From Lysinibacillus sp. FJAT-14745 (lineage in GTDB: Bacteria; Bacillota; Bacilli; Bacillales_A; Planococcaceae), in the NCBI RefSeq assembly GCF_001275675.1, contig NZ_LITM01000005.1, positions 308,094-372,093 on the forward strand: a stretch of 64,000 nucleotides of DNA. Reading direction: 5' to 3'. This document shows positions 14,031-35,664 of this stretch, in pieces. Within the stretch, counting starts at the first letter, position 1, and each line of letters starts with the position of its first letter. Under the pieces are notes generated by a model. That model saw only the letters and a list, made by a program, of their open reading frames with translations, did not search any database and was not told the origin of the DNA. Both the position numbers and the translations under genes were made by a program.

Positions 14031-14065
14031 TGAATATTTAGTTAAGTTGTTCATTCACTTTCGTT

Positions 14066-16447: not shown

Positions 16448-16457
16448 TGTCATCTCT

Positions 16458-16502
16458 ACAAAAAAAGCTATTACCATCACGTCATAAGTAATGGCAATAG
16501 CT
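16458..16502 (-). terminator. Terminator of the DUF485-symporter operon
   Basis: Minus-strand stem AGCTATTGCCAT/ATGGTAATAGCT is followed by TTTTTT. It lies 38 bp beyond the symporter stop. Confidence 0.85.
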
Positions 16503-19884: not shown

Positions 19885-20048
19885 TTCATAACACGTAAAT
19901 GAAGCATTCAAGTCACTCCATTACAAAAAAGAATCTGCTAGACCTCAATGACAAAGTAAACAACGCAAGCCCCCCATCATTAAGGAGACTTGCGTTATTA
20001 ATTACATAGAATGCAGATTCTTATTTTTAGTTTGCATTACTGTTTGTT

Positions 20049-20168
20049 TTTATCCACCGGAGGCTTTGGGCCAACACGATGTTGGTCACTCAGTCGTTGC
20101 CACAGGACGTGGCGATCGTAGACTGAGTTCCGCTATTTCAGCGGATGTTTGGACACCCGCTAAAAGAA
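20049..20168. repeat. Palindromic element of the second family, copy F1 (partial)
   Basis: Starts CCGGAGGC, which is the right end of copies F2 and F3. It contains the shared module: hairpin CCAACA/TGTTGG (20071-20085), then nested stems ACTCAGTC/GACTGAGT enclosing GCCAC-AGGAC-GTGGC (20088-20128). A third hairpin, GCGGATGTTTGGACACCCGC, ends the element 2 bp before the ileS stop codon. No copy of the other end is seen. Confidence 0.8.
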
Positions 20169-20169
20169 C

Positions 20170-22938
20170 TTAAACGTAATACTTTTCTACAACTTCTGCA
20201 CAACGCGCACACACTGTTGGTTGTGCTTCATTTGAGCCGACTGTTTCAGAAATAGACCAGCAACGTTCACATTTTTCACCTGTCGCCTTTTCTACAACAA
20301 TCGATGCATGTTCTAGAGCTAATGCATCTGCAGGTGCAGCTTCAATTGATGCTACTTCAAAGGCAGAAACGATTGAAAGCTGTGCAAAATCAATGTTTGC
20401 ATCATTTAATAATGCTGCCACATCTTCTTTCGCATAAACTGTTACTTTCGCTTCAAGTGATTTACCAATTGTTTTTGCATTACGAGCTTCCTCTAATGCT
20501 TTTAAAATATCGTCACGAACATCAATAATATTCACCCATTTTGCACGTAGACTTTCGAAGTTTTCATGTTCAAATACCTCTGGGAAGTCTGTTAATTGGA
20601 CAGATACCTCTTCTACAACACCTTGAGCATGTAAGTAAGACCACATCTCGTCACTTGTATGAGGGATAATAGGTGACATTACTTTTACTAATGTCATTAA
20701 TGTGTCATAAATAACTGTTTGCATCGCACGGCGATTTTTGTTGTCATGGCCTTCGATGTACACAACATCTTTTGCAATATCTAAATAGAATGAAGATAAT
20801 TCTACTGCAACAAAGTTATTCACTGCATGATAAACAGCTGCGAAATCATAGCGATCATATGCAGCACTTACAGTTTTTAAAACATCTTGTAGACGCATAT
20901 AAACGTACTGATCCATTTCACGAAGATCTTCATATGCTACTCGATCTTTCGTTGCATCGAAATCAGCTACATTTCCGTGTAAGAAACGGAATGTGTTACG
21001 GATTTTTCGATAAACCTCAGATACTTGTTTTAACATATCCATTGAGATACGAACGTCGGCTGTATAATCTACAGAAGCAACCCATAGACGAAGAATATCT
21101 GCTCCGTATTGATCCATAACCTTTTTCGGGATAATTACATTCCCTAAAGATTTACTCATCTTACGACCTTCACCATCTAGCACGAAACCATGTGTTAATA
21201 GTCCCTTATATGGTGCATAGCCATTAATAGCTACAGAAGTAATTAATGATGAGTTAAACCATCCACGGTGTTGGTCAGAACCCTCTAAATATAAATCAGC
21301 TGGATATTTCATACCACGTTCTACTAGCACACCTTGGTGAGAAGAACCTGAGTCAAACCAAACGTCCATAATATCGTTTTCTTTTGTAAATTCACCGTTC
21401 GGGCTACCCGCATGTGTGAAGCCTTCAGGTAATAATTCTTTTGCTGTTTTTTGGAACCAAATATTTGATCCATGCTCACGGAATAATGCTGAGATATGGG
21501 CAATTGTTTCTGGTGTAATAATTGGCTCACCATTTTCAGCATAGAAAATTGGAATTGGAACACCCCATGCGCGCTGACGTGAAATTACCCAGTCTCCACG
21601 GTCACGAATCATATTATAAAGACGAGTTTCACCCCAAGCAGGTGTAAATGTCGTTGATTTTACTGCGTCTAGTAACTCATCACGGAATGCATCTATTGAC
21701 GCAAACCATTGTGGTGTTGCACGATAAATAACTGGTTTTTTCGTACGCCAGTCATGTGGATAGGAGTGTGTAAAGAAGTTAAGCTTTTCTAACGCACCGA
21801 CTTCTTTTAATTTTTCTGTGATTAATTTGTTTGCATCATTGTAGAATACACCTTCAAAACCAGGTGCTTCATCTGTATAGCAACCGCTATTATCAACAGG
21901 GCTAAGAATTGGTAGACCATATTGCTTACTAATATGATAGTCATCTTCCCCGTGTCCCGGTGCTGTATGAACACAACCAGTACCCGCTTCAGCAGTTACG
22001 TGCTCTCCAACCATCACAAGAGATTCACGATCATAGAATGGATGCTGTGCAACAATTCGATCTAAAGCTTCACCTTTAACTTCTTGAACTACTTCATACG
22101 ATTCCCACTCAAGTTCGTTAGCAACTGTTTCTAATAATTCTTTTGCAACGATGAATTTTTTATCTGCAACCGCAACAACTACATAGATAAATTCAGGGTT
22201 TACAGAAATCCCTAAGTTCGCTGGAATTGTCCAAGGTGTTGTTGTCCAAATGATAAATTTAGCATCAGTTGGTACAACGCCTTTAGAATCTTTAATCGCA
22301 AAGCTTACATAAATAGAAGCCGATTTAACGTCTTTATATTCAATTTCTGCTTCTGCAAGTGCAGATTCAGATGATGGAGACCAGTAAACTGGTTTTAAAC
22401 CTTTATAAATATAGCCTTTTTCAGCCATCTTTCCGAAAACTTCAATTTGACGAGCTTCAAATTCAGGCTTTAATGTAATATATGGATTTTCCCAATCACC
22501 ACGAACACCTAAACGGCGGAATTGTGTACGTTGGTTGTCGATTTGCTCGTAAGCATACTCTTCACATAATTTACGGAATTCAGCAACAGACATTTCTTTG
22601 CGCTTTACACCTTTGTTTGTAAGTGCTTGCTCAATTGGTAAACCATGTGTATCCCAGCCTGGAATATAGTTTACATGGTAGCCAGTCATTGAGCGATGAC
22701 GCGTAATCATATCTTTCAGCACTTTATTTAAAGCATGTCCGATATGGATATCACCATTTGCATATGGAGGTCCATCGTGTAACACATACTCAGGGCGTCC
22801 TTCTGTACGCTCCATTTGTAATTTATTAATGTCCATTTCATCCCATTTTTCTTGCATTTTCGGTTCATTTGCCGGTAAGTTTCCACGCATTGGGAAATCT
22901 GTTTTTGGCATTAATAATGTATCTTTGTACTCAACCAT
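20170..22938 (-). CDS. ileS: Isoleucyl-tRNA synthetase
   Basis: Class I synthetase that charges tRNA-Ile. The 922 residues have the HIGH signature (HIGHALNK near residue 66), the large CP1 editing domain ([12 protein letters not shown] near residue 234), the KMSKSLGN signature near residue 594 and a C-terminal zinc knuckle CERCW...CARC. AAGGAGGAATTG precedes the ATG. Expression is controlled by a T-box leader further upstream, separated from the gene by repeat A2. Confidence 0.98.
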
Positions 22939-23034
22939 TTTTTCAATTCCTCCTTTATTTTACAAACAAAGAACATATGCAAATAGGCGCTCATTCACAT
23001 ACGACAGTTATTAGGCTCATCATTATAACGTGTG

Positions 23035-23263
23035 GTTGATTTCCGTTCCGGCTGGGCGCTTTGCCGCTAACGCTTCGCTTTCGCGCAGAGCAGAGCTTCC
23101 TGGGGGCGTCCGATGAGCCGCTTCACTCGCGATGCTCGCTCCAGGGTCTCGGGCCAACAGGATGTTGGTCACGAAGGCGTTATCACAGGACGTGATGGTT
23201 TTAGCCTTCGTTCAGCTATATCGCTAATCCCCAAGGAGTCGCCCAGCCTCCACTCCAATCAAC
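23035..23263 (+). repeat. Type A palindromic element, copy A2
   Basis: Same inverted ends as A1. The interior holds a micro-element, CTTCCTGGGGGCGTCCGATG, hairpin CCAACA/TGTTGG, and nested stems CGAAGGC/GCCTTCG (23172-23210) enclosing ATCAC-AGGAC-GTGAT. It is followed by GTTTTAACAAAAGTCATCC, a flank also seen next to copies A3, A6 and A8. It lies between the T-box terminator and ileS, so it is transcribed into the ileS leader. Confidence 0.88.
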
Positions 23264-23394
23264 TTATTTACATAGTAGACGTTTTAACAAAAGTCATCCA
23301 TAACTTTTGATGATGAACCCACATTTTAACAACGTAAGTATAAGTTCAAACATAGCATTTTTCCACCAATAAAAATGGAAGCCTTCCGCCATTT

Positions 23395-23670
23395 GAACAT
23401 ACAAAAAGCCTCTCAATCCCACAAAGGGACGAGAAGCTTATACTCGCGGTACCACCCTAATTGTAGCACAATATTGTACTACCACTTAAAGCACGTTAAC
23501 GTTGTGCCTCACGAAATAACTTACTTCATTCAGTTATTTAGCTCCGAAGTGATGTTCATTGTTATTTGCTTGTTTGGGCTCACACTATCCCCAAATCGCT
23601 TAACTACGCCTAACAAATACTGTCTTCGTCTCTGCCTGTTTGCATATGTGTTCAAAATAATTACTATTAC
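23395..23670 (-). ncRNA. T-box leader of ileS (isoleucine specifier)
   Basis: Minus-strand RNA with the conserved T-box AGGGTGGTACCGCG (23447-23459 region). This is followed by a terminator stem AAGCTTCTCGTCCC/GGGATTGAGAGGCTT and TTTTT (23404-23440). In Stem I the bulge reads GAACATCACTTCGGAGCT, giving specifier ATC (23551-23553), an isoleucine codon, which agrees with ileS downstream. Uncharged tRNA-Ile is expected to stabilise the antiterminator. Confidence 0.92.
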
Positions 23671-23673
23671 CAT

Positions 23674-23702
23674 AGTATATGAAAATCAAACAATCACGTC
23701 AA
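23674..23702 (-). promoter_or_regulatory. Sigma-A promoter of the ileS T-box transcript
   Basis: Minus-strand TTGACG (23697-23702), 17-bp spacer, TATACT (23674-23679). The boxes are identical to those of the pyr operon promoter. It lies between divIVA and the T-box. Confidence 0.82.
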
Positions 23703-23738
23703 GCTTCACTTATTGCGTTCAAATGCTAATAATAGCGA

Positions 23739-24263
23739 TTAAACTTGATCGGCTTCCTGTGCTTCTTCAACAGATGTTTGAATTTCAGTAAGGTCAATAT
23801 CATATTGTAGCAAATGGTCCCAATCATCTGCATTTAGTAAATCCAGCTGTGCCTCTACAAGCATTTTAAAACGATTACGGAATACCTTTGATTGCTTTTT
23901 CAGCTCATCAATTTCAATTGTTACTTTTCGAGCTTTTGTTAAAGCCTCATTGATAATACGATCAGCATTTTTTTCTGCTTCCTTTACAATGAGTTTAGCC
24001 TCTTTTTGAGAATTTCTTCGCACTTCGTCAGCTGCCTCTTGTGCAACAACAATTGATTTTTGTAACGTTTCCTCTAATGAGTTAAAATGTCTTGCTTGTT
24101 CTAAAGAAATTTCTAATTGTCTGTCTACTTCCTTTTTTTCACGTAACAAAATTTCATAGTCTTTAATAATTTGATCTAAAAATTCATTTACTTCATCTTC
24201 AGCATAACCTCTGAAGGATTTAGTAAATTCCTTATTATGTATATCAATAGGTGATAACGGCAT
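23739..24263 (-). CDS. divIVA: Cell division initiation protein DivIVA
   Basis: Curvature-sensing coiled-coil protein that gathers at cell poles and septa and recruits Min and sporulation factors. The 174 residues begin MPLSPIDIHNKEFTKSFRGY, the conserved lipid-binding N-terminus (with Phe and Arg residues expected at the membrane). Two coiled-coil blocks follow (about 30-60 and 70-135). The ATG at 24263 is chosen over the longer frame because AAGGAGAGAAGG precedes it and the family starts here. It closes the ylm cluster, before ileS. Confidence 0.96.
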   Translation of the reverse strand: MPLSPIDIHNKEFTKSFRGYAEDEVNEFLDQIIKDYEILLREKKEVDRQLEISLEQARHFNSLEETLQKSIVVAQEAADEVRRNSQKEAKLIVKEAEKNADRIINEALTKARKVTIEIDELKKQSKVFRNRFKMLVEAQLDLLNADDWDHLLQYDIDLTEIQTSVEEAQEADQV

Positions 24264-24358
24264 ACGATCCTTCTCTCCTTTACATGTACATTCGTACTTT
24301 CTATTATACAATTGTTCCAACAACTTAGCAGTAAAAATTAATGAAATTCACTTGATTT

Positions 24359-25147
24359 TCAGCTTTTTTGAGTCAATCGACCGATTTGTAAACGAATTTT
24401 ATCTTTTTTTGTACGGCCTTCAGTCATCATAATTTTTATTCGACCGCTACCGCGCACAGATAAAATATCTCCTTCTTGTAATTCAAAAGCAACTGTATCC
24501 CGTTCAGTCCAATTGATACGTACCTTTTTACCTGTAATTAATGCTTGTGCCTTCTGGCGAGAAATTTTTAAAACAGTGGAGATAATAACATCTAAACGCA
24601 TAGAAGAAACAGTATGAGACTCTTCTAGCCACTCTTCCTCGTTTTGAAGCAATTGCTCCGTCTCTTTAATCGATTCTACATGTACCTTTACTTTGCCGAT
24701 GCCTGTTAAATGTAAGCGTACATATTCCGCTACCTCATTCGCTACTACAAATTGTACTAGATGGTCATTTACACGAATATCACCGAATTTACCACGATCC
24801 AATCCTAAAGATAATAAAGCTCCAAGAACATCTGGATGTCGTAGTTGGACAAATTTCACAGGATATTGAATTGTAAATACTGTAAGCTGAAAATCTTCCT
24901 CCATAGGCTCATAATAAGTAGGATAAATAAGCATGCGTTGTCTTTCTGCATCCTCAAAGAGCCCAGCACTAGCTATTTTTAAAATGTCATACTGTCCAAT
25001 TATCGATGCAACAATAAAGCGCTGTCGAGGGTCTAGAAAATCAGTAAGCTTTGGAGCATAACGATCCTCTACCTCATGCTGCCAGCCCACAACCTGTTCA
25101 ATAAAAGGCTGTTCATCTTTCCTAAAATGCTGTATTAAATGCTCCAT
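24359..25147 (-). CDS. ylmH: YlmH, S4-domain RNA-binding protein
   Basis: The 262-residue protein ends with an S4 domain (about 180-245: SMRLDVIISTVLKISRQKAQ ... GDILSVRGSGRIKI). The N-terminal part is of the YlmH type (FLDPRQRFIVASI near residue 38). It is conserved between ylmG and divIVA in Bacilli. From general knowledge, YlmH family members act on stalled 50S subunits in ribosome quality control. GAGGTGAAG precedes the start. Confidence 0.93.
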   Translation of the reverse strand: MEHLIQHFRKDEQPFIEQVVGWQHEVEDRYAPKLTDFLDPRQRFIVASIIGQYDILKIASAGLFEDAERQRMLIYPTYYEPMEEDFQLTVFTIQYPVKFVQLRHPDVLGALLSLGLDRGKFGDIRVNDHLVQFVVANEVAEYVRLHLTGIGKVKVHVESIKETEQLLQNEEEWLEESHTVSSMRLDVIISTVLKISRQKAQALITGKKVRINWTERDTVAFELQEGDILSVRGSGRIKIMMTEGRTKKDKIRLQIGRLTQKS

Positions 25148-25235
25148 ATAACTTCACCTCTATTATCTCTCTTTTACTGGTTCAATTTCATTGGTATTTT
25201 AAGGATTCAAAAAATACTCATAATCATAACGTGGG

Positions 25236-25533
25236 GTTGATTTCCGTTCCGGCTGGGCGCTTTGTAGCTGCCGCTTTGCTTTCGCTACAGAAAACATTTG
25301 CCGCTGACGCTTCGCTTTCGCGCAGAGCAGAGCTTCCTGGGGGCGTTCGATGAGCCGCTTCGCTGCAGGGTCTCGGGCCAACAGATGTTTTTTGCGCGAA
25401 AGCGTAGTGCTAACGCAGCGTCAGCAGCACCGATGTTGGTCACGAAGGCGTTATCACAGGATGTGATGATTTTAGCCTTCGTTCCTCTATTCGTTGATCC
25501 CCGAGGAGTCGCCCAGCCTCCACTCCAATCAAC
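25236..25533 (+). repeat. Type A palindromic element, copy A3
   Basis: Longest simple copy (about 298 bp), with the same ends. It contains the covarying micro-element TGTAGC...GCTACA (25263-25289). Its CCAACA...TGTTGG hairpin is split by about 50 bp of inserted micro-elements (GCGCGAAAGCGTAGTGC and similar). The nested stem reads CGAAGGC/GCCTTCG with ATCAC-AGGAT-GTGAT. The right flank again has GTTTTAACAAA and CATCCCAACTTTT. The rest of the gap, 25534-25835, holds nothing I recognise. Confidence 0.88.
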
Positions 25534-25835
25534 ATATATGCATTTCACATATGTTTTAACAAATGTTGTCATCCCAACTTTTAAATCTTCACTAAAATAT
25601 GTACATGATTACACATTATACTCCGGAAGACGCTCGCGGGTGAGGTCAAAGCGTCCTCATCGCTCATACTTCGAGATACCTTCATTTTTATTCAAGAACA
25701 GATTTTAGTATCGATCCTTAATTTCAGTTGAATTTGCTTTAGATTGCCAAAACACCGTTTCCTACTCACACTTATGAATTCTAGGGAATCATCACTAAAT
25801 TGCAACGGTTCTTGTTAAATTTATTATTCCCCATA

Positions 25836-25866
25836 AATAAAAAATCCCCACCGTTCGTGAGGATTT
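25836..25866 (-). terminator. Terminator after ylmG
   Basis: Minus-strand stem AAATCCTCAC/GTGGGGATTT with loop GAACG is followed by TTTTTATTT. It lies directly after the ylmG stop, so divIVA and ylmH are probably expressed separately or by readthrough. Confidence 0.85.
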
Positions 25867-25869
25867 CTT

Positions 25870-26151
25870 TTAAGCAAACATATCGTATATTTTTAAAATA
25901 ACAATAAAAAGCCCTTTTTGAATATAATTAAGAAGAAATATTGCTACGATAGGTGAAATATCAATCATGCCAATTGGCGGAATGAATTTTCTAAAGATGG
26001 CAAGATAAGGTTCGCATACTTTTGCTAATAAACGTCCAATTGATGAGTTTTGAATAGCTGGCACCCAAGACATTAAAACATATGCGACTAACATTAGTGA
26101 ATAGACATAAAATGCTATTGACACATACTTCAAGATTAAATAAAAAGTCAT
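25870..26151 (-). CDS. ylmG: YggT-family membrane protein (YlmG)
   Basis: A 93-residue protein with two hydrophobic helices (about 5-27 and 65-88) and the YggT pattern LMSWVPAIQNSSIGRLLAKVCEPYLAIFRKFIPPIGMIDISPIVA. It lies between sepF and ylmH as in B. subtilis. The exact function is not known; the position suggests a link to division. The gap to sepF is 20 bp. Confidence 0.92.
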   Translation of the reverse strand: MTFYLILKYVSIAFYVYSLMLVAYVLMSWVPAIQNSSIGRLLAKVCEPYLAIFRKFIPPIGMIDISPIVAIFLLNYIQKGLFIVILKIYDMFA

Positions 26152-26171
26152 ATAAACTACAATCCTCGCTA

Positions 26172-26669
26172 TTAATTATCGTCTAAAATAAAATTTGAAA
26201 TTTCGCCAGACACTTCTACATTATCAGGTGTGCATAGGAAAATGTCTTTACCGATTCTTTGAATATCACCGCCAAGTGCATAAACTGTGCCACTTAAAAA
26301 ATCAATAATCCGTACACCTTGCTCTCGCTCAATACGTTGTAAATTGACGATCGTTGCACGCTTATTTTTTAAGTGTTCAGCAATGTCCTGAGCTTCGGCA
26401 TAAACTCTAGGTTCAACTAATACAACTTTTGCGCCTTTAGAATTCATTGCTGCCTGTAAACTTACAATGTTGTTTGTAGGTGTTGAACTCTGCGGAAAAA
26501 TTTCCTGAACCGGTGCCTTACGCTCCTTCATGACTTTTTTAGGCTTCACTGATTGAATCTGTTGCTGTTGTTGAACGGGTTGTTGCTGCTGAATAGGAGC
26601 TTGCGTAATTTCTTCTTCTAGTTCTTCCTCTAGATAAAAGAAATTTTTAATTTTATTTTTCATGCTCAT
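26172..26669 (-). CDS. sepF: Cell division protein SepF
   Basis: FtsZ-bundling membrane anchor of the Z-ring. The 165-residue protein begins [11 protein letters not shown], the amphipathic membrane-binding helix. A glutamine-rich linker follows (about 25-50), then the C-terminal SepF domain ([25 protein letters not shown] ... [25 protein letters not shown]). The ATG at 26669 overlaps the ylmE end and follows AAGGGAACAGG. A longer frame upstream lies inside ylmE and is rejected. Confidence 0.95.
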
Positions 26670-27357
26670 CCTGTTCCCTTCTTTCATTTCCAACAAGAGC
26701 CGTTCCAACTCGAACAAATGTAGCCCCTTCTTCTACCGCAATTTCAAAGTCATTAGACATGCCCATTGATAACTCGGTACAAGGTGCGTGTGCGAATCCT
26801 TGCTCGGCTATTTGCTGTTGACATTGTTTTAATTGCTTAAAAACAGAGCGAATAATTGTATCCTCATCTGTGTTTGGTGCCATTGTCATTAAACCAACAA
26901 CTTGAATTTTTGTAAAATCCTTTAATGATTCAATAAAAGGCAGAACTTCTTCAATCGATAAACCATGTTTTGCTTCTTCACCTGATACATTAACTTGTAC
27001 AAAACATTTGACAGGTTTGTCTGCTCTTTTTTCAATTTCTTGCGCTAAACTCAAACGATCTAATGCATGTAAATAATCAATACTGTTAATAACTTGTTTG
27101 ACCTTCCGTGTTTGTAAAGATCCGATATAATGCCAATGTACATCAGCTTGAATCGCCTCAATTTTACGATTTAAGCCTTCAGGACGGTTCTCTCCTAAAT
27201 GAATTAGCCCCGCATCAATTGCTTCTTGTGTTCTTTCTACTGAAACTTCTTTTGTCACTGCAATAATTTGGACTTTCTCTGCTTCACGATTTGTACGTTT
27301 TTTTGCTGCTTGTATAAGTTCATTAATTTTCTTCAAATTTGTTAAGATTTTTATCAC
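26653..27357 (-). CDS. ylmE: PLP homeostasis protein, YggS/PLPBP family (YlmE)
   Basis: Non-catalytic pyridoxal phosphate-binding protein that balances vitamin B6 and amino-acid pools. The PLP Lys lies in IIAVTKEVS (near residue 35), with [10 protein letters not shown] near residue 77 and phosphate-binding [22 protein letters not shown] near the end. No ATG lies at the expected place. The GTG at 27357 gives 234 residues, close to the B. subtilis length, but its ribosome site is weak. The frame is open to 27420, so the start is uncertain. Confidence 0.9.
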
Positions 27358-27508
27358 TTTTTTTCCCAACTTTACAACAATAGTTTCTTTTATTGTAACA
27401 AGCAATGCTTGAATTATCAATGAATAGCCTGACCTATGTGAAAGTACATTTTACTTTACCAACGCTTTAAAGGTGCTTAATTTCTAATACGCATAGAAAT
27501 TTTGCTCT

Positions 27509-27745
27509 TTAGGATAATGCTTTCACTAAAATGACATCTTTGCCAACTACAAGTACATCTTTCATATACACTTTCCTAACAGATTCTTCCCCGCGAAAAA
27601 AGCCAAGATATTTACGGGGCTCTGCAATCATAAAAGCCGTTACATAGCCTGTTTCTTTGGATACCTCTGCATCTACCACAAATCCTAAAAAGCGTCCATT
27701 GCCTGCTTCAATAACTTCTTTTTGTTGTAACATTGAGAAACGCAT
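27509..27745 (-). CDS. ylmC: YlmC/YmxH-family PRC-barrel sporulation protein
   Basis: A 78-residue PRC-barrel-like protein (MRFSMLQQKEVIEAGNGRFLGFVVDAEV, then KYLGFFRGEESVRKVYMKDVLVVGKDVILV). The family is linked to sporulation in Bacilli. The ATG at 27745 is preceded by GGGAGGGAT and matches family starts better than the in-frame start at 27778. The neighbour ylmD, which lies between ylmC and ylmE in B. subtilis, is absent: only about 150 bp separate the two genes. Confidence 0.88.
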   Translation of the reverse strand: MRFSMLQQKEVIEAGNGRFLGFVVDAEVSKETGYVTAFMIAEPRKYLGFFRGEESVRKVYMKDVLVVGKDVILVKALS

Positions 27746-27880
27746 TTTATCCCTCCCTAAATCAATTACTCTCAACATCGTTTTATCTCAACAAACTATG
27801 TTTTCTCTTTATATTTATGTGTTTATTGTTGTTTAAATGAAAATGAAATGATTAAGGAATCTCTCTTTGGCAAAACGAAG

Positions 27881-27950
27881 GGGTGATTTCCGTTCCAGGC
27901 TACTCGCTTTCCTGTGGGCGAGCGTCGAGTAGCCTTCCACTCCAATCAGC
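27881..27950 (+). repeat. Type B palindromic element, copy B1
   Basis: Compact 70-bp version: GGTGATTTCCGTTCCAGGCT at the left, CCTTCCACTCCAATCAGC at the right. The inner stem is GGCTACTCG/CGAGTAGCC, where type A has GGCTGGGCG/CGCCCAGCC. The flank AAAACGAAGG resembles that of type A copies. Nothing else is seen at 27951-28117 apart from a decayed CGCATAGACAAAAC micro-element. Confidence 0.82.
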
Positions 27951-28117
27951 AATGGCGTAGAATTCCAATAGTGGACGATATTACAACAAACCTTAAGTTA
28001 ACACTTCGCCTTCGCACAGAAAAATTTGTTGCTGTCGCATAGACAAAACCCTTTTGCTAAAGACGTTTTATCACTTAAATTATAGCGATTGGAAGAACAT
28101 ACATGCTATATGAATTG

Positions 28118-28320
28118 GTTGATTGGAGTGGAGACTGGGCGACTCCTTGGGGATTAGCGATAGAGGAACGAAGGCTAAAACCATCACGTCCTGTGATAAC
28201 GCCTTCGTGACCAATTTCGTATTGGCCCGAGACCCTGCAGCGAAGCGAATGTTTTCTGTGCGAAAGCGTAGTGCTAACGTAGCGGCAGCAACAAAGCGCC
28301 CAGTCGGAACGGAAATCACC
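28118..28320 (-). repeat. Type A palindromic element, copy A5 (inverted)
   Basis: Same family read on the minus strand, from GGTGATTTCCGTTCC at 28320 to CCAATCAAC at 28118. It carries CGAAGGC/GCCTTCG stems with ATCAC-AGGAC-GTGAT. The first hairpin has become CCAAT-ACGA-ATTGG, a compensatory change from CCAACA/TGTTGG. It lies between sigG and ylmC. Confidence 0.87.
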
Positions 28321-28383
28321 CCTCGTTTTGCCGAAGAGCAACCTTAATCTTATATGACATTTTAATTTCATTGAAATAAATAA

Positions 28384-28412
28384 AATGCGCACCCAGCATT
28401 CGGATGCGCATT
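28384..28412 (-). terminator. Terminator of sigG
   Basis: Minus-strand stem AATGCGCA/TGCGCATT with further CCC/GGG pairing and a short loop, followed by TTATTT, 6 bp beyond the sigG stop. Confidence 0.8.
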
Positions 28413-28417
28413 GTTTT

Positions 28418-29191
28418 TTACTTATAATCTTTCTGCATTGTTTCTATTGCATTTTTTTCTAGACGAGAAATTTGCGCTTGAGAAATCCCCAACTCTTTTG
28501 CAATTTCTGTTTGTGTCTCACCGTAATAAAAACGCTTTGCAACAATCATTTGTTGACGATCATCTAACTTTTGCAAACTTTCCTTTACTGACACGTAGGC
28601 AACCCATTGATCTTCTGATACATCATCATCACGTAATTGGTCCATCATATAAACAGCGTCTCCACCATCTGAATAAATGGGCTCTTGTAAGGAAACTGGG
28701 TCTTGAATGGCATCTAAAGCAAATAAAACATCTTCCTTTTTCATGTCAATCATTTCAGCAATTTCTTCAATCGTTGGTTCTCGTAAATTATCGGTTATCC
28801 ATTGCTCTTTTGCCTGCATCGCCTTATACGCAATATCTCTTAGAGAACGAGAAACACGTAATGCATGATGATCACGCAGATGGCGACGAATTTCACCAAT
28901 GATCATCGGTACAGCGTATGTTGAAAATCGTACATTATGCTTCAAATCAAAATGATCAATGGCTTTCATGAGGCCAATACAGCCTACCTGAAATAAATCA
29001 TCTGCCTGCTCACCCCTGTAGGCAAATCTACCGACAATACTAAGCACTAACCTTAAATTGCACATAACAAGCTCTTCTCTAATCTCAGTTTCTCCAGCTT
29101 GTAAACGAATGAATAATTCCTTCATTTCCTCGTGCTTTAAAATTGGCAAAGTCGATGTATCTAAGCCGCAAAGATCTACTTTAGTTCGCAT
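28418..29191 (-). CDS. sigG: Sporulation sigma factor sigma-G
   Basis: Forespore-specific late sigma factor. The 257 residues show region 2 (DLFQVGCIGLMKAIDHFDLKHNVRFSTYAVPMIIGEIRRHLRD, residues 67-110) and region 4 helix-turn-helix (TQTEIAKELGISQAQISRLEKNAI) at the C-terminus. The N-terminus MRTKVDLCGLDTSTLPIL is the sigma-G type. It follows sigE as in B. subtilis. Confidence 0.97.
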   Translation of the reverse strand: MRTKVDLCGLDTSTLPILKHEEMKELFIRLQAGETEIREELVMCNLRLVLSIVGRFAYRGEQADDLFQVGCIGLMKAIDHFDLKHNVRFSTYAVPMIIGEIRRHLRDHHALRVSRSLRDIAYKAMQAKEQWITDNLREPTIEEIAEMIDMKKEDVLFALDAIQDPVSLQEPIYSDGGDAVYMMDQLRDDDVSEDQWVAYVSVKESLQKLDDRQQMIVAKRFYYGETQTEIAKELGISQAQISRLEKNAIETMQKDYK

Positions 29192-29305
29192 ATTCGATTC
29201 CTCCGGATGTTATTCTCTGACTAAACCGTTACATCAGTTTGTCCGAGAGAAACGAGAATATGCACAAAAGATACGACCAATTTTAGGTAGGGTAAATTTC
29301 CCTCT

Positions 29306-30013
29306 CTAAGATATTGGCTGATTCAGATTTTCACGTAAATCTTGAATAATTTTCTTCTCTAATCGGGAAATATATGATTGGGAAATACCTAAATGATCAG
29401 CAACTTCTTTTTGAGTCATTTCAATTTTCCCATTGAGACCAAAACGACATTCCATAATATATCGTTCACGCGCACCTAGTAAATTAATGGCATGAAACAT
29501 ATGTTGACGCTCAATTTTCTTCTCTACATTGTCTAAAATAATATGCTCTTCTGTTCCTAAAATATCAGACAATAACAACTCGTTTCCATCAGCATCGGAG
29601 TTTAATGGTTCATCTAATGAAACTTCACCCTTCATGCGACTTGTTTTACGTAAATGCATCAAAATCTCATTTTCAATACAACGTGATGCGTATGTGGCAA
29701 GTTTAATATTTTTATCAGTATTGAACGTTTCGATCGCCTTAATTAAACCGATAGAGCCAATACTTATTAAATCCTCAATCGGCGTTCCCGTATTATCAAA
29801 ACGTCTAGCAATATAAACAACAAGACGTAAATTACGTTCAATTAGTGTATCTCTAGCTCGTAAATCACCATTCATAAAGGATGCAATGACTGTAACTTCT
29901 TCTTCTCGACTTAGTGGCACTGGCAATGAATCATTTCCCCCTATATAGTACGTTTCACGACTCCGAAACTTACTCCAAAATTTTTTCAAGCTAGCAAGTA
30001 GCCTAAGAAGCAA
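29306..30013 (-). CDS. sigE: Sporulation sigma factor sigma-E precursor
   Basis: Mother-cell early sigma factor made as pro-sigma-E. The first ~25 residues (LLRLLASLKKFWSKFRSRETYY) form the basic amphipathic pro-sequence that SpoIIGA removes near YYIGG. Region 2 (DLISIGSIGLIKAIETFNTDKNIKLATYASRCIENEI) and region 4 (EMTQKEVADHLGISQSYISRLEKKII) follow. The start is a TTG at 30013 after GAGGGGGAG. It lies 13 bp after spoIIGA and forms the spoIIG operon. Confidence 0.97.
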   Translation of the reverse strand: MLLRLLASLKKFWSKFRSRETYYIGGNDSLPVPLSREEEVTVIASFMNGDLRARDTLIERNLRLVVYIARRFDNTGTPIEDLISIGSIGLIKAIETFNTDKNIKLATYASRCIENEILMHLRKTSRMKGEVSLDEPLNSDADGNELLLSDILGTEEHIILDNVEKKIERQHMFHAINLLGARERYIMECRFGLNGKIEMTQKEVADHLGISQSYISRLEKKIIQDLRENLNQPIS

Positions 30014-30026
30014 TAGTTCTCCCCCT

Positions 30027-30860
30027 CTATGAGTTATTTGAAAGCGCTGAAAAATGTAAAATTGCTGCTGTGCTATGTGGAAAATTTTTAGCCTTTTTTG
30101 TTAACACGATATATTCATTCGTTTTCACTTGTGAGTGCTCCCGCTGTATATGCCACTCATCAAAGCGGAAACCTAGTACAACCGATTGCTGTTGCACTGT
30201 ATTGACATGAATAAATCGAATATAACGCTGATAATCTTCTGAAAACATGGATACGTTATACGGATCAGTTTCTTGCCATTCTAACAAAGATTTGCAAAAT
30301 GCTGCAGGTAAATGTGGGCGTAATGCTGCATAAGAGACAAAGTGAACAGGTTTTCCTGATAGTGGCTCAATCGCTTGATTCCCCGTATCTACAAATGCAG
30401 AGAGTGGTATCTTGACATCAAAGACTTTTAACGTCGTAGCAAACACAAACTGACCACTCAACCGCTCAAGCTTTACAAACCCCCATTGCTTATAAAAAGC
30501 AACAAGATTACCAACAGCTAATAGTAGGCAAATGATGATAAAATGGACAACAGATAGATTCTTTAAATACGGTTGTAATGCTGTTAATAATCCACCAATA
30601 ATGATTGTTGCTGTTAAAACGATCGGTCCTTGTTTTTGAAAGCTTCGAGTCTTGAAGCGAAAAGCTATCCCGATTAGTAAGATAAAGCTCAGTACCGTCG
30701 TCAACAGCATTTGACCACCGATTACAGCTACAAAACTACTACAAATAGAACTCATTAATAATTTCGTGTTCTTTACAAAAACCCCTGTTACTTTTGCCGT
30801 AAACTTGAGTATCGCTAGATTAAAAAGTGTATTAATGAGCACCAGCCATTCTCCATACAT
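30027..30860 (-). CDS. spoIIGA: Sporulation sigma-E factor-processing peptidase
   Basis: Membrane aspartic protease that activates pro-sigma-E after a signal from the forespore (SpoIIR). The 277-residue protein has five hydrophobic segments in the first ~150 residues. The C-terminal protease half has the active-site motif FVDTGNQAIEPLSG near residue 160. The start follows TAGGAGGCGG. Confidence 0.95.
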   Translation of the reverse strand: MYGEWLVLINTLFNLAILKFTAKVTGVFVKNTKLLMSSICSSFVAVIGGQMLLTTVLSFILLIGIAFRFKTRSFQKQGPIVLTATIIIGGLLTALQPYLKNLSVVHFIIICLLLAVGNLVAFYKQWGFVKLERLSGQFVFATTLKVFDVKIPLSAFVDTGNQAIEPLSGKPVHFVSYAALRPHLPAAFCKSLLEWQETDPYNVSMFSEDYQRYIRFIHVNTVQQQSVVLGFRFDEWHIQREHSQVKTNEYIVLTKKAKNFPHSTAAILHFSALSNNS

Positions 30861-31075
30861 AACAGCCGCCTCCTACTTACAAAGTTAGCATGTTACACCC
30901 ACAAATATTGTCAAACAATCGCATCAATTCATTAAAATGTTTTGACAAAATACATCCTTTCCTTACACATTTGAACATAATTAATTTTTTAGACTCTGAA
31001 AATAGTCAAGGAAATTTTTATGAATGTTGTAGCGCTTTAAATGGGGATGTGAATCCTTTTTTGCTCTTTTGAAGG
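30861..31075 (-). promoter_or_regulatory. spoIIG promoter region with possible Spo0A boxes
   Basis: Two TGTCAAA heptamers in opposite orientation, at 30909-30915 (+) and 30941-30947 (-), each differ by one base from the Spo0A box TGTCGAA. On the minus strand TTTGACA at the first site could also serve as a -35 box for spoIIGA. Spo0A control of spoIIG is known in B. subtilis; its presence here is inferred. No gene is visible in this stretch. Confidence 0.4.
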
Positions 31076-31077
31076 TG

Positions 31078-31205
31078 AGTGTTGATAAAAATTAAAAGTT
31101 GGGAGATAAAACGTGAAAGTTTATCGATAAATTTAAAAAGTTGGGTGATAATTCCTGAAAATGTTTCGATAAAACTAAAAAGTTGGATGTCATTTTGTTA
31201 AAAGG
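31078..31205 (-). repeat. Short 21-bp-period repeat joined to element A6
   Basis: About five degenerate units of the AAAGTTGGGNGATAAAACGTG type with a 21-bp spacing. They end in AAAAAGTTGGATGTCATTTT, then GTTAAAA. The same block, in the same order, occurs at 54650-54835. The minus strand reads as LSPNFLNLSINFHVLSPNF but no gene is supported. Confidence 0.75.
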
Positions 31206-31221
31206 TATGTCATGTGAATTG

Positions 31222-31333
31222 GTTGATTGGAGTGGAGACTGAGCGACTCCTTGGGGATCAGCGTCACAGATGAGACCCTGCAGCGAAGCGAAGCGGCTCA
31301 TCGGACGCCCCCAGGAAAGCGCTCAGTCGGAAC
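31222..31333 (-). repeat. Type A palindromic element, copy A6 (inverted, short)
   Basis: Ends GGTTGATTTCCGTTCC (31333 side) and CTCCAATCAAC (31222 side). The core stem reads GACTGAGCG/CGCTCAGTC, another paired change from GGCTGGGCG. The interior is reduced to CTTTCCTGGGGGCGTCCGAT and GCAGGGTCTCATC; the AGGAC module is missing. It lies between ftsZ and spoIIGA. Confidence 0.83.
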
Positions 31334-31404
31334 GGAAATCAACCCCTCGTTTTGCAGAAAAGCCATACTTTATTTAATAGGACAGTCTGACATATCACCA
31401 ATAG

Positions 31405-31444
31405 AAAAAGCTCGTATTTCACATAATGTAAAATACGAGCTTTA
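31405..31444 (-). terminator. Terminator of ftsZ / dcw cluster
   Basis: Perfect stem AAAGCTCGTATTT/AAATACGAGCTTT with an 11-base loop; T-run on the minus strand. It lies 20 bp beyond the ftsZ stop. Confidence 0.9.
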
Positions 31445-31463
31445 TAGAAGTTCGGATGCTGAT

Positions 31464-32621
31464 TTATCCGCGATTTTTACGGTTACGTAAAAATGCTGGT
31501 ACCTCAAGCATGTCATCCTGCGCATAATTTTGTTGATTTTGACGTGGTTGCTCTTGCTGTACGTGCACATCTTGACGTTGCTCACGAATCGGAGCTTGCT
31601 GTTGCTGTACAGCTTGTCTATTTGTATTTAACGTCGGTCGTGTAGTATTACGCTGTTGCTGTAGAGCTTCCTCTGAGAAACCAGTCGCAATTACTGTCAC
31701 AATTATTTCATCCTTTAGATTTTCGTTAATAACAGAACCGAAAATCATATTTACTTCTTCATCTGATGCTGAAGCTACGATATCTGCAGCCTCTTGTACT
31801 TCAAACAAGCTAAGATTCGAGCCTCCTGTAATATTCATAAGGACACCTTTAGCACCATCAATTGATGATTCAAGTAAAGGACTTGAAATAGCTTTCTTAG
31901 CAGCTTCTGCAGCACGGTTTTCGCCTGTAGCAATACCAATACCCATTAACGCTGAACCTTTGTTAGACATAATTGTTTTTACATCTGCAAAGTCTAAGTT
32001 TATAAGACCTGGCGTTGCAATTAAATCTGAAATACCTTGTACACCTTGTCGTAAAACATTATCTGCTTCACGGAATGCCTCTAGCATTGGCGTAGATTTA
32101 TCGACAATTTGTAATAGCTTGTCGTTTGGAATGACGATTAAAGTATCAACAGACTCCTTCATGCCACCAATACCACCGATAGCTTGTGTTTGTCGTTTGC
32201 GACCCTCAAACGTAAATGGACGCGTTACAACACCGACTGTAAGAGCTCCTAAATCGCGAGCAATTTGCGCGATAACTGGCGCGGCACCAGTACCAGTTCC
32301 TCCGCCCATTCCAGCTGTAACGAATACCATATCTGCACCACGTAGAACTTCTTCTAATTGTTCGCGGCTCTCTTCTGCAGCTTTTTTCCCTACTTCAGGA
32401 TTTGCACCTGCACCTAATCCACGTGTAAGTTTTGTACCAATTTGTAGCTTTATTTCTGCTTTCGATAAATTTAACGCCTGTGCATCTGTGTTTACTGCGA
32501 TAAAGTCAACACCTTGTACACCATGTTCTATCATTCGATTGACAGCGTTGTTACCGCCGCCACCAACACCAATGACTTTTATTACTGCAAGTTGATCAAC
32601 ACTTGTATCAAATTCTAACAT
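31464..32621 (-). CDS. ftsZ: Cell division protein FtsZ
   Basis: Tubulin-like GTPase that forms the Z-ring. The 385 residues include the GTP-binding loop [15 protein letters not shown] near residue 17 and the tubulin signature [13 protein letters not shown] near residue 104. A variable Q-rich linker (about 318-370) is followed by the conserved C-terminal peptide [16 protein letters not shown], which binds FtsA and SepF. GGGAGGAAAAAG precedes the ATG. The 246-bp gap to ftsA holds palindrome F2. Confidence 0.98.
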
Positions 32622-32677
32622 TTCTTTTTCCTCCCACGGTAACTCGACTCTGTATCATTCATTACGCATTCAAGATT

Positions 32678-32873
32678 AATTATGCCTCGGTATAATTGCG
32701 TCCGGAATCGGCTTTGTGCTGGCACAAAGAACTCCTTTCCGATTCCGTGACATCCGCCGGAGGCATTAACTTCTTTCAGCAGGTGTTTGGACATCTGCTG
32801 AAAAGTAGCTTAAATCCGCATTCATCTCTCACCACCTATAGAGGTGGGAGACTTCTGCTGAAAGAAGTTAATC
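32678..32873. repeat. Palindromic element of the second family, copy F2, between ftsA and ftsZ
   Basis: Left part: GCCTCGG...CCGGAGGC and CGGAATCGG/CCGATTCCG enclose the hairpin CTTTGTGC-TG-GCACAAAG. Right part: a perfect 18-bp inverted repeat, ATTAACTTCTTTCAGCAG (32765-32782) with its complement (32855-32872). This encloses a local CAGCAG/CTGCTG hairpin (32777-32800) and a CACCACCT/GAGGTGG hairpin. The distal arm covers the ftsA stop codon (32868-32870). The whole element is in the ftsA-ftsZ transcript. Confidence 0.88.
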
Positions 32874-34151
32874 AAAAAACTTATCAAATAATTTTTTTGC
32901 TCTTCCGATTACGCTTCCTTTTGATTCTGAAGGTGCAGCATATTCTTGCTTTTTAGGTGTGGCTGCAGGAGATCCTACAACTGCATATTCAATAGGATGC
33001 GTATTAATACTTTTTCCATAAAAATCATCTTCTAAATAGGCGTAACGAATAAGTCCAACTGCCGTCGTAAATGAAGGCTCTCTAACGCCAATATAGTCAG
33101 GTGTATATATTCTAACACGCGTTTGCAGAATCTGGCGTGCCAGTTGAGCAATACCTTCAAGCTTTGCAACGCCACCTGTCAAAACAACACCGCCTGGTAA
33201 ATCCCTGACACCTAGACGGGCTAACTCGTCGATGACTAACTCAAATAATTCTTCCAAACGAGCGCCAATAATTTCTGATATAAAGCGCTGGCTGTACTGA
33301 TCTGTTGAATCTGTCCCTACAACTGGTACTTCGAAGAGTTCATCATCTGATGCGTCATCATAATAGGCATGTCCAAATTGATGTTTAATTTGTTCTGCCT
33401 GTTCTGTTGGTGTTTTTAAGACAATCGATATATCTTTCGTGATATGATCGCCACCAACAGGAATGACACCAGTATGTGTTAACAGTCCCTCTTCGAATAC
33501 TGTGATAGTAGTTGAACCGCCTCCTAAATCAACGAAAGCGGTACCTTGGTTTTTTTCATCCTCCGTTAATGCAAAAAAACCTGCTGCTAATGGTTGCAAA
33601 TATATTTCTCGAATACTTAGACCTGCACGTTCTACACAGCGTAGAACATTGTGTAAAAGTGTTTTGGAAGTTGTAATCATTGTGGCATCCATTTCTAAAC
33701 GAATACCAATCATACCTCGTGGATCTTTAATCTCATCTAAATTATCCACAATAAATTGTCTAGGAATAATATTTACTAATTCACGTTCAGGAGGTATTGA
33801 CATGACTTGTGCAGATTCTACCACTCTATCTAAATCATCATCTGTAATTTCTCTATTTTCACTATTTACAGCGACAACACCTTTAACTAGCTGTAACATC
33901 GTCTGGTTAGCCGGAACCCCTAAAACGACTTCATTTATTTGATATCCTGTCATTCGTTCAGCTTGATCTATCGCTTTTCGAATCGATTGAACTGTTGCAT
34001 CAATATCAACAATTGCACCTTTTCGAACTCCATTCGATTTTACATTTCCGACTCCAATTACATGTAATTGACCGTCGCTCATTTCACCTATTAATACCTT
34101 GATAGAGGATGATCCAATATCAAGAGAAATATATAAATCTTGCTGATTCAA
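32868..34151 (-). CDS. ftsA: Cell division protein FtsA
   Basis: Actin-like ATPase that anchors FtsZ to the membrane. The 427-residue protein has the phosphate-1 motif YISLDIGSSSIKVLIGE at residues 7-23, the phosphate-2 region FVDLGGGSTTITVFEEG near residue 207, and VVLTGGVAKLEG near residue 331. The C-terminal amphipathic helix VIGRAKKLFDKFFD binds membrane. Its stop codon is formed inside repeat F2. GGAGGTGCAG precedes the ATG. Confidence 0.97.
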   Translation of the reverse strand: MNQQDLYISLDIGSSSIKVLIGEMSDGQLHVIGVGNVKSNGVRKGAIVDIDATVQSIRKAIDQAERMTGYQINEVVLGVPANQTMLQLVKGVVAVNSENREITDDDLDRVVESAQVMSIPPERELVNIIPRQFIVDNLDEIKDPRGMIGIRLEMDATMITTSKTLLHNVLRCVERAGLSIREIYLQPLAAGFFALTEDEKNQGTAFVDLGGGSTTITVFEEGLLTHTGVIPVGGDHITKDISIVLKTPTEQAEQIKHQFGHAYYDDASDDELFEVPVVGTDSTDQYSQRFISEIIGARLEELFELVIDELARLGVRDLPGGVVLTGGVAKLEGIAQLARQILQTRVRIYTPDYIGVREPSFTTAVGLIRYAYLEDDFYGKSINTHPIEYAVVGSPAATPKKQEYAAPSESKGSVIGRAKKLFDKFFD

Positions 34152-34247
34152 TTCACTGCACCTCCTTGAAAAAATGCTCTTATCTTCATTCTATTGTAAA
34201 TTCGGCATAATGTCTAAGCAAATCGAGTATTTTGCTCAATTTTTCTC

Positions 34248-34619
34248 TCATTCTATGGAATTTTTGTTCCTTTTATGACGTTTCTCATCAAACCGAGTTA
34301 GTAAAATACGCCTAATTATTGCTATATTCTGGAATAAACGCACTCCGAAAGCGAATATAGCAGCTAAATATAAATCTATTCCTAAATACACACCTAAAAA
34401 GGCTAATCCCGCTGCCAGAATTATATTAAAAAAGAATCCTGAGACAAATACTTTATCGTCATACACTTGCTGTAATTGAGCACGAATACCGCCAAATAAT
34501 GTATCTAAAGCTGCTAAAACAGCTATTGACAGATAATTTTCATATATAGAGGGTATTTGTATATTTGTTAACAAGCCAAGGGCAAGTCCAAATATCAAAC
34601 CTAAAAATGGTAGCCACAT
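34248..34619 (-). CDS. sbp: Small basic protein Sbp (DUF1290)
   Basis: A 123-residue membrane protein with about four hydrophobic segments and a basic C-terminus (LTRFDEKRHKRNKNSIE). It belongs to the Sbp/DUF1290 family found just upstream of ftsA in Bacilli. GIRAQLQQVYDDKVFVSGFFFN is the conserved middle. Function unknown. It follows ylxX by 3 bp. Confidence 0.9.
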   Translation of the reverse strand: MWLPFLGLIFGLALGLLTNIQIPSIYENYLSIAVLAALDTLFGGIRAQLQQVYDDKVFVSGFFFNIILAAGLAFLGVYLGIDLYLAAIFAFGVRLFQNIAIIRRILLTRFDEKRHKRNKNSIE

Positions 34620-34622
34620 ATA

Positions 34623-35342
34623 TTATTCTCCTTTTTTCACCTCTGTTAAATAATCATTTGTCAATGGCTGATCAAATGCTGGGATTGTTAAATGCTCAGT
34701 TGGTTCCTCAATTATTAAATTAAAGTTGTCCAAATAAAAAGAATCGATAAATGTTGAAGCTTGTAACGAATTGTACATTTTTTGAGCTTCCTTAAAAGAG
34801 CTTGTCCCAACATAAATTTCAAAGAGTGGTGAGGACAGTGGTACACTGTTCACTGTAGTCTTTCCATTTATGTCTCGAATGGCTGTCTTCTGGACAACGC
34901 GATTTCCATCTATCGAGACACTCGCTGCATTGTTTTTAAACAGTCCATTTAGTAATTGGGTTAGTAAATCAGGTGAAATTTCTTTGATTTCATACCCCAT
35001 TTCTACTAATTCGGGTGCTGGTTCAACACGAAGTATAACTCCTGGCCCCGTGACTTCCGTTAGCCCTGCCTGTAGCTTTAAATGATGCAGCGTTTCATAT
35101 AATGCTGACTGTAAATTTGCTTTCTCAGATTGCTCATAGCGACCCACTACTTCATTAAGTGAACGAATTTCTGCTAATAATGTGGAATGCCTTTGCTTTT
35201 CTTCTGCTAATTCCTCTCTTATGGCCCAAATATCTCGTGTATCTCGCTCAGCTGGTTTCTTTATGGTATTGTATTGTACCGCTATCATCAAACCGATAAT
35301 AAATAGCACGATCGTTATTCGGGTATACATATTTTTTTTCAA
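34623..35342 (-). CDS. ylxX: DUF881 protein YlxX
   Basis: A 239-residue protein with an N-terminal membrane anchor (8-22), a coiled coil (about 35-75) and a C-terminal DUF881 domain (LTEVTGPGVILRVEPAP ... NAASVSIDGNRVV). DUF881 proteins lie between divIB and ftsA in sporulating Bacilli; their role is not established. It is a paralogue of YlxW, 322 bp upstream, from which repeat F3 separates it. Confidence 0.9.
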   Translation of the reverse strand: MKKNMYTRITIVLFIIGLMIAVQYNTIKKPAERDTRDIWAIREELAEEKQRHSTLLAEIRSLNEVVGRYEQSEKANLQSALYETLHHLKLQAGLTEVTGPGVILRVEPAPELVEMGYEIKEISPDLLTQLLNGLFKNNAASVSIDGNRVVQKTAIRDINGKTTVNSVPLSSPLFEIYVGTSSFKEAQKMYNSLQASTFIDSFYLDNFNLIIEEPTEHLTIPAFDQPLTNDYLTEVKKGE

Positions 35343-35418
35343 AATAGCCCCTCCTAGACGTATCGTAACCCCTCTCAGATTTACGCCTTAGATCTTGAAT
35401 TATGCAAAATACTTGATC

Positions 35419-35630
35419 AATTATGCCTCGACATAATTGCGTCCGGAATCGGTTTGTGCTTAGGCCTGCACGAGGGCCAACACGATGTTGGTCATTTCGG
35501 TAATGCCACAGGACGTGGCGCTTTTACCGATGCAGGTCAGTTAGCCGTTATCGCATGGATGCGATGATTTTAGGCTAACATCCTTTCTTAACGCCTTTCC
35601 GATTTCGTGACATCCGCCGGAGGCTATAAC
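35419..35630. repeat. Palindromic element of the second family, copy F3, between ylxW and ylxX
   Basis: Ends GCCTCGACATAATTGCGTCC and GACATCCGCCGGAGGC. Stem CGGAATCGG/CCGATTTCG (one G-U). The interior is cloverleaf-like. CCTGCA/TGCAGG encloses hairpin CCAACA/TGTTGG and nested stems TCGGTAA/TTACCGA around GCCAC-AGGAC-GTGGC. A second nested hairpin, GTTAGCC/GGCTAAC around ATCGCA-TGGA-TGCGAT, follows. No reading frame spans it. Confidence 0.86.
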
Positions 35631-35664
35631 TAAATTTAATCTGTAAATATTGACTATAAATTGT

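Follow-up and report, generated by a model that had tools for sequence, protein, structure and literature searches.

Bacillaceae-1 RNA (Rfam RF01690) was first described in 2010, with no function given in the part of that description available to us (PMC2864571), and eight such structures are annotated in Bacillus subtilis (PMC8208703). According to the available text of a later paper, the discoverers lacked confidence in the strand; that paper proposed, from motif matches, that the reverse complement of Bacillaceae-1 binds CsrA (PMC4333381, December 2014). CsrA represses flagellin in B. subtilis via two leader sites, and the repeats of CsrB have the form CAGGA(U/A/C)G within hairpin loops (PMC7652899). 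In RsmZ, SL3 and SL4 have five-base A-GGA-X loops (PMC4005645). Here, we consider a module of nested hairpins in 64,000 nucleotides (nt) of Lysinibacillus sp. FJAT-14745 (contig NZ_LITM01000005.1, positions 308,094 to 372,093 of the forward strand; we call this whole stretch the window). We identify the module as Bacillaceae-1 RNA, with the reverse complement of the Rfam entry as the structured strand, and on balance we favor the explanation that this strand carries a CsrA-site hairpin that mimics the flagellin leader, within a cassette of mobile repeats. We will refer to the strand in the Rfam entry, which has UCCU loops, as the Rfam strand, and to the other strand, on which these loops read AGGA, as the AGGA strand.

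A preliminary description of the window, which was made without database searches, listed five copies of the module and knew of no named family for them. The five copies are real: the motif CACAGGAYGTG is found at 20101, 23184, 25455, 28185 (minus strand), and 35507, while 100 dinucleotide shuffles gave a mean of 0.05 sites and never reached five. The family does have a name. Covariance-model scores identify five matches to RF01690 in the window (46.9–75.3 bits, all above the gathering score of 35 bits), of which four lie on the listed copies and one on the module within which the fifth copy is nested, so this hairpin build is already known as Bacillaceae-1. The exchanges of whole stems were as described, with outer and inner stems of ACTCAGTC/GACTGAGT and GCCAC/GTGGC, CGAAGGC/GCCTTCG and ATCAC/GTGAT, or TCGGTAA/TTACCGA and GCCAC/GTGGC, and the first hairpin of the inverted copy does read CCAAT/ATTGG.

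The 5.16-Mb genome that the window comes from has at least 147 matches to RF01690, of which 146 are above the cut-off. (We scored 150 of 655 candidates, and the window's match at 35523 was not among them, so 147 is a lower bound.) Across 32 Lysinibacillus genomes, the copy number ranges from zero (eight genomes) to at least 112, with up to 112 candidates scored per genome. More broadly, 202 of the 261 genomes in the family (up to 18 candidates scored per genome) and 83 of 398 genomes sampled from the class Bacilli (up to 12) have the module. One record that is titled Pseudomonas sp. ISL-84 (JAGGRA010000031.1; our locus L216) has a Bacillaceae-1 module with Cytobacillus-like flanks and may be mislabeled or contaminated.

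Because the five copies in the window come from just two or three lineages, the window by itself offers a small number of compensatory events to count. For a wider sample, we scanned a genome collection using a pattern with fixed loops and free stems, and the figures that follow are among the matches listed. Scanning all of the stretches collected in the same way, with up to three mismatches at the 21 loop positions gave 397 matches, of which 345 are unique (120 from the window's own genome and 225 from others); copies with more loop mismatches, or truncated at the end of a stretch, are not in this set. Because retrieval by the loops favors intact loops, we do not take loop conservation in this set as evidence. 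Among the 345 unique copies, the outer and inner stems are 92–98% Watson-Crick paired and the first hairpin is 78–84% paired. As a control, if the partners in the outer and inner stems are slid by one or two positions, just 16–27% are Watson-Crick pairs (225 other copies). Furthermore, in 131 copies from 45 non-Lysinibacillus groups, 11 of the 12 outer and inner pairs have at least two Watson-Crick types; the remaining pair is the one that closes the AGGA loop. (We assigned the groups by hand, using the titles of records and the genus codes, and some may be the same genus; 32 unlabeled copies, L243–L272, some of which are from Lysinibacillus, were left out.) The claim that both sides of each stem change together is thus borne out by strong covariation, which supports selection on a structured single strand.

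Which strand is selected can be judged from the imperfect pairs. A stem that is selected as RNA tolerates G·U pairs but not A·C pairs, and an A·C on one strand is a G·U on the other. For the 12 outer and inner pairs of the 131 copies, the Rfam strand has 4 G·U cells and 62 A·C cells. If we set aside the terminal pair, as the A at position 49 may be retained for another reason, then the counts are 4 and 23, or 4 and 21 if we count each group, column, and pair just once (p = 0.0009). The first hairpin has 8 G·U and 17 A·C, and Lysinibacillus copies have the same lean, more weakly (17 and 37). These counts do not fit a functional strand as drawn in the Rfam model. The excess of A·C over G·U on the Rfam strand implies that the other strand, whose loops read AGGA(C/U), is the structured one; the preliminary description had read this strand, as AGGAC. 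We considered whether a strand bias in mutation could be the source of this asymmetry, and this was not supported: between co-directional genes outside Lysinibacillus, the ratio of G·U to A·C has the same sign in both orientations (0:4 and 1:10). Between convergent genes, also outside Lysinibacillus, there were 5 A·C and 1 G·U. The AGGA strand has the lower folding energy in 154 of 163 copies that are not labeled as Lysinibacillus and in 151 of 182 that are, but this preference depends on the number of wobble pairs and on loop energies, so we do not use it as evidence.

On the AGGA strand, the module has a first hairpin with the loop A(G/C)GAU, and then an outer stem that encloses a short hairpin with an AGGA(C/U) loop on CAC/GUG. 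A hairpin with a CsrB/RsmZ-type loop, or A(N)GGAX closed by four pairs, is found in 131 of the 147 copies in the window's own genome. The loops are AGGAC (77 copies), AGGAU (50), AGGAA (2), and AUGGAU (2), and the hairpin in question is the first hairpin in just one of these 131 copies.

A similar hairpin lies upstream of flagellin genes in the same bacteria. Of 21 usable stretches around csrA, 15 have a flagellin-like open reading frame (ORF), and 14 of these have an ANGGAX hairpin about 45–62 nt upstream, on CAC/GUG in 11 of the 14. (The hairpins at L430 and L436 were judged by eye, and we found no ANGGAX hairpin of this type upstream of the flagellin-like ORF at L437.) In the window's own genome, the flagellin-leader hairpin is UAUUCCAC-ACGGAU-GUGGAAUG. 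The inner hairpin of the module, which is CCAC-AGGAC-GUGG or UCAC-AGGA(C/U)-GUGA, is the flagellin-leader hairpin minus one loop base. By analogy, the AGGA hairpin would imitate the flagellin-leader hairpin and is a putative binding site for CsrA.

The two hairpins of the module do not retain GGA equally. In the 126 own-genome copies that are exactly 67 nt long (the 21 of other lengths were left out), GGA is kept in the inner hairpin of 122, in the first hairpin of 21, and in neither hairpin of 3. Both loops have GGA in 20 of these 126 copies, as compared to 86 of the 131 copies from elsewhere, where the retrieval favors intact loops. Which hairpin retains GGA varies by lineage: Lysinibacillus retains it in the inner hairpin, whereas three of the four genomes read from another genus (g11; loci L361–L419) retain it more often in the first. 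In g11, the counts for the first and inner hairpins are 15 and 4 of 15 copies in G072, 11 and 0 of 12 in G073, 8 and 3 of 16 in G069, and 7 and 8 of 13 in G076. The hairpin that does not retain GGA often has ACGA in place of AGGA.

In the window's own genome, the modules sit within at least two larger mosaic repeats (types A and B), plus a third (A2) that was judged from the flanks. When we searched the genome with repeat A from the window (40 of 203 candidates scored), we found 41 left ends, 22 with a module abutting and 19 without. Three type A elements shown without the module read GATTAGC-GTCACAGAT-GAGACCC. Four were shown with it: in three, GAT(T/C)AGC and GAGACCC flank the module, and the fourth joins AAGCGGCTC instead. 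In other words, the module replaces 9 bp in otherwise matching type A elements (GATTAGC-module-GAGACCC). The window itself holds type A repeats both with and without the module.

These repeats are also present or absent at orthologous sites, as for mobile repeats of the miniature inverted-repeat (MITE-like) kind. We examined 11 of 290 matching pairs of loci, many of the 290 being matched through repeats only. At three loci, a whole element of 383, 211, or 255 bp is absent from the relative (the pairs are L013/L188, L015/L232, and L021/L189), and in another pair, a 130-bp pair of modules is absent from within a shared B element. The other pairs displayed were present in both genomes, rearranged, or ambiguous. 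The ends of type A are imperfect inverted repeats (GTTGATT...CTGGGCG), with no clear target duplication at the empty sites. A third outer repeat in the window's own genome (TTTAACTGATTGTAGCG...GGGAAAGC; for example, at C9:132933, C21:545699, and C25:31379) has identical modules in several of its copies, which suggests recent spread. Carriage by phages was not supported, with no exact matches to the loop pattern in viral contigs.

The module is itself a target for insertion. The first hairpin is intact in 85 of the 147 own-genome copies, was flagged as possibly interrupted in 36, and falls in neither class in 26. Among the 36 flagged copies, 11 have one or more cassettes of about 45 nt directly between the arms (inserts of 41–129 nt) and one holds a further Bacillaceae-1 module; others include degenerate or chance arms. 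The loop of the first hairpin is a repeated insertion point. The roughly 45-nt cassette (core like TTGCTGTCGCTACGTTAGCACTACGCTTTCGCGCA) is seen in this loop at 25376–25430 in the window and at several other loci of the genome, sometimes in tandem, and is flanked by an ACATC-like direct repeat. The preliminary description had suggested that the module could be the non-autonomous part of a hairpin-recognizing transposon. Orthologous presence and absence and nested insertion support mobile carriage; a Y1 transposase, of the type associated with repetitive extragenic palindromes (REP) or IS200, is not supported.

Within the window, copy 1 (20071–20137, AGGA loop on the plus strand, 71.3 bits with the Rfam match on the minus strand) lies in a type B repeat, and its inner hairpin is CACAGGACGTG (20101–20111, plus strand). 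Copies 2, 3, and 4 lie in type A repeats. (The ends of all of the outer repeats are approximate.) Copy 2 is at 23154–23220 on the plus strand (75.3 bits; inner loop at 23184–23194) in a repeat at 23010–23300. Copy 3 is at 25372–25491 on the plus strand (62.2 bits at 25424–25491; inner loop AGGAT at 25455–25465) in a repeat at 25205–25570, and alignment shows that a cassette of about 45 nt splits its first hairpin. Copy 4, which is the inverted copy with CCAAT/ATTGG, is at 28159–28225 with its AGGA loop on the minus strand (68.7 bits on the plus strand), in a repeat at 28080–28335. Two more type A repeats, at 1850–2085 and 31195–31385, lack the module. Copy 5 is a Bacillaceae-1-like module on the plus strand at 35474–35535 (approximate end; motif at 35507–35517; repeat family D6). 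It has no Rfam match of its own and is embedded in another module, at 35523–35589 (plus strand; 46.9 bits on the minus strand), whose first hairpin holds it. This second module has the six-base loop AUGGAU on AUCGC/GCGAU and was absent from the preliminary list. Both modules are in a type B repeat at 35415–35632 (families D17 and D18), and similar nesting occurs at another locus of this genome, L051.

The copies are broadly intergenic, as had been claimed, except that there are short ORFs across copy 3 (25298–25708) and copy 4 (28075–28392). Across the genome, 34 of the 147 copies overlap an ORF of 80 or more amino acids; most of these ORFs are of 80–150 amino acids and they are probably spurious. 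The type A repeat with copy 2 lies between a T-box leader (23422–23641, minus strand) and a 922-amino-acid ORF on the same strand (start at 22938) that is probably isoleucyl-tRNA synthetase, given its size and the T-box. Because of this placement, the leader transcript would include the Rfam strand of copy 2. Elsewhere in the window, there is a 21-bp periodic repeat at 15611–16470 (families D1 and D2) and, on the minus strand at 13895–14034, a PyrR binding site (RF00515) that lies upstream of a possible pyr operon.

If the AGGA hairpin is a CsrA site, then the module might be expected alongside csrA. The window's own genome has csrA (G000:C28:22182-22337). In the Bacilli sample, csrA is present in 80 of the 83 genomes with the module (the exceptions are G112, G204, and G334) and in 234 of 398 genomes overall, a comparison that was made by eye and in which phylogeny is a confounder. 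In the family, the module is found in 191 of 234 genomes with csrA. In the genus g12, the module is in 28 of 36 genomes with csrA and in 3 of 10 without, and this is the sole mixed genus with a clear effect.

Several observations weigh against the CsrA-site explanation. Of the 27 genomes of the family that lack csrA, 11 still have the module, although three of the 11 are incomplete assemblies (G060, G214, and G249; 75–87%). In the genera g8, g11, and g17, genomes without csrA retain the module, with no effect. One of these, G073, has 66 matches. Of the 12 unique copies read from it, 11 retain the GGA of the first hairpin, with no sign of relaxation; unless csrA was lost recently, this argues that the module does not depend on CsrA. 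The strand asymmetry is not uniform either: between divergent genes outside Lysinibacillus there were 2 G·U and 1 A·C, and for Lysinibacillus alone, the collapsed counts (12 and 21) do not differ significantly (p = 0.16). As for the sites, first hairpins of the window's own genome seldom retain GGA, so most copies there carry one site and not two, and a five-base loop belongs to a weaker class of CsrA/RsmE site than the six-base ANGGAX loop (PMC4005645). Finally, as described below, the AGGA strand mostly opposes the neighboring genes in this genome, so most copies between co-directional genes would not be read into neighboring mRNAs as AGGA hairpins. We also treated the loss of csrA as a natural experiment: there was no relaxation of the first hairpin in G073, and retention was mixed in G069, but it was also mixed in G072 and G076, which have csrA.

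The persistence of copies in genomes without csrA would be expected if the module were just a structured element of a mobile repeat, perhaps a binding or processing site for some transposase, as RNA or as single-stranded DNA, and its likeness to CsrA sites were a coincidence. This alternative also accommodates the nesting of modules in hairpin loops, with the first-hairpin loop as the recurrent insertion point, and the range of copy number within one genus. Also, among the matches listed, the own-genome copies whose flanks we examined are mostly within recognizable mosaic repeats. Against it, flagellin-leader hairpins of the same bacteria match the module in their closing pairs and loop, nearly all of the module-bearing Bacilli have csrA, and Y1 transposase is absent from five high-copy genomes. 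We regard this alternative as a serious one that is nevertheless unlikely.

A second alternative is that the Rfam strand is the functional RNA, as a stabilizer or attenuator within the mRNAs of neighboring genes. For this analysis, genes were taken to be ORFs of at least 100 amino acids, chosen by length, rather than annotated genes, and repeat types A, A2, B, and C were assigned by a crude string rule. The Rfam strand is in sense with both neighbors for 80 own-genome copies between co-directional genes, versus 19 for the AGGA strand, and another 45 copies lie between convergent or divergent genes. (With ORFs of at least 80 amino acids, the ratio is 74:19.) The bias is strongest for type B (32:1, versus 37:17 for type A) and is also seen at other Lysinibacillus loci (29:9). 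In contrast, outside Lysinibacillus, the orientations between co-directional genes are balanced (35:33), and the wobble pairs are retained on the other strand. Moreover, the orientation bias could equally have arisen if insertions with the AGGA strand in sense are lost from mRNAs. Such insertions may be purged because they bring a CsrA site, or the pattern could come from a preference at insertion. A functional Rfam strand thus seems quite improbable to us.

Scans of 19850–28500 did not identify a convincing promoter or terminator at the module: there were 35 promoter-like sites, with 24.9 expected (standard deviation 5.2), and 5 terminator-like sites, with 5.8 expected. These include a promoter-like match (9 of 12 positions) inside copy 1 (20097–20124, plus strand) and, in the type A repeat that holds copy 4, a weak match to a terminator (28297–28311, minus strand), both of them unconvincing.

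Lastly, short intergenic palindromes at high copy number, together with two Y1_Tnp matches in the window's own genome (both partial), might suggest REP-type palindromes that are moved by a RAYT or IS200-like Y1 transposase, but this is very improbable, as Y1_Tnp is not associated with copy number: it has no match in five genomes with 109 to at least 112 copies (G027, G045, G048, G056, and G057) and is present in seven of the eight module-less genomes.

Returning to the explanation that we favor, a transcribed copy of the putative CsrA site would titrate CsrA, as a decoy, or would put a nearby mRNA under the control of CsrA. As a cassette, the module is carried by at least two mosaic repeats that move as non-autonomous elements, presumably with the help of some enzyme. 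A more speculative extension, which we consider rather doubtful, is that mobile mosaic repeats captured a mimic of a CsrA site, and that transposition and insertion of cassettes into hairpin loops set the load of decoys and of CsrA-controlled mRNAs. If so, then these bacteria would have a Gram-positive counterpart of CsrB that is made of over 100 dispersed parts and that acts alongside FliW. And if the AGGA strand does bind CsrA, then the strand in Rfam needs to be corrected, and a widespread repeat would be a regulator that spreads by transposition.

The closest described system is Bacillaceae-1 RNA itself, with which the module shares both sequence and structure. The Rfam entry is typed as an sRNA (small RNA) gene on the opposite strand, whereas in this genome mobile repeats carry the module as a cassette, there are at least 147 copies, and some are nested or have a six-base loop. 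The paper on its reverse complement as a CsrA-binding sRNA is reportedly by Gardner and Eldai. It suggests the same function that we do and, in the text available, rests on motif models; to this we add the strand test from wobble pairs, the comparison with flagellin leaders, the co-occurrence with csrA and its exceptions, and carriage by mobile mosaics (PMC4333381). Our search of the literature on Bacillaceae-1, judged mostly from catalog entries, turned up no apparent published test of the CsrA proposal, and we found no paper that combines Lysinibacillus, intergenic, and miniature inverted-repeat. As far as this search shows, the quantitative strand test, the match to flagellin leaders, and carriage by mobile nesting cassettes are new.

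Pneumococcal BOX elements are short, non-coding, structured repeats with a variable number of internal modules. Like them, bcr1 and other intergenic repeats of Bacillus are short, non-coding, and structured, and bcr1 is mobile according to the title of a cited reference; both bcr1 and BOX have other hosts or sequences and are likened here by description only, and the available text mentions no CsrA-type hairpin for bcr1 (PMC2267715). The sRNAs of the CsrB/RsmZ type share with the module short hairpins in which C-G closes an A(N)GGAX loop, but each of those sRNAs comes from one gene and has numerous sites, with binding established, whereas the module has one or two candidate sites per copy, in more than 100 scattered copies (PMC7652899, PMC4005645). 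Whether FliW and sRNAs act jointly on CsrA remained to be determined in any species, according to the available text of a 2020 review (PMC7652899), and Bacillaceae-1 gives concrete RNAs with which to address this question in B. subtilis.

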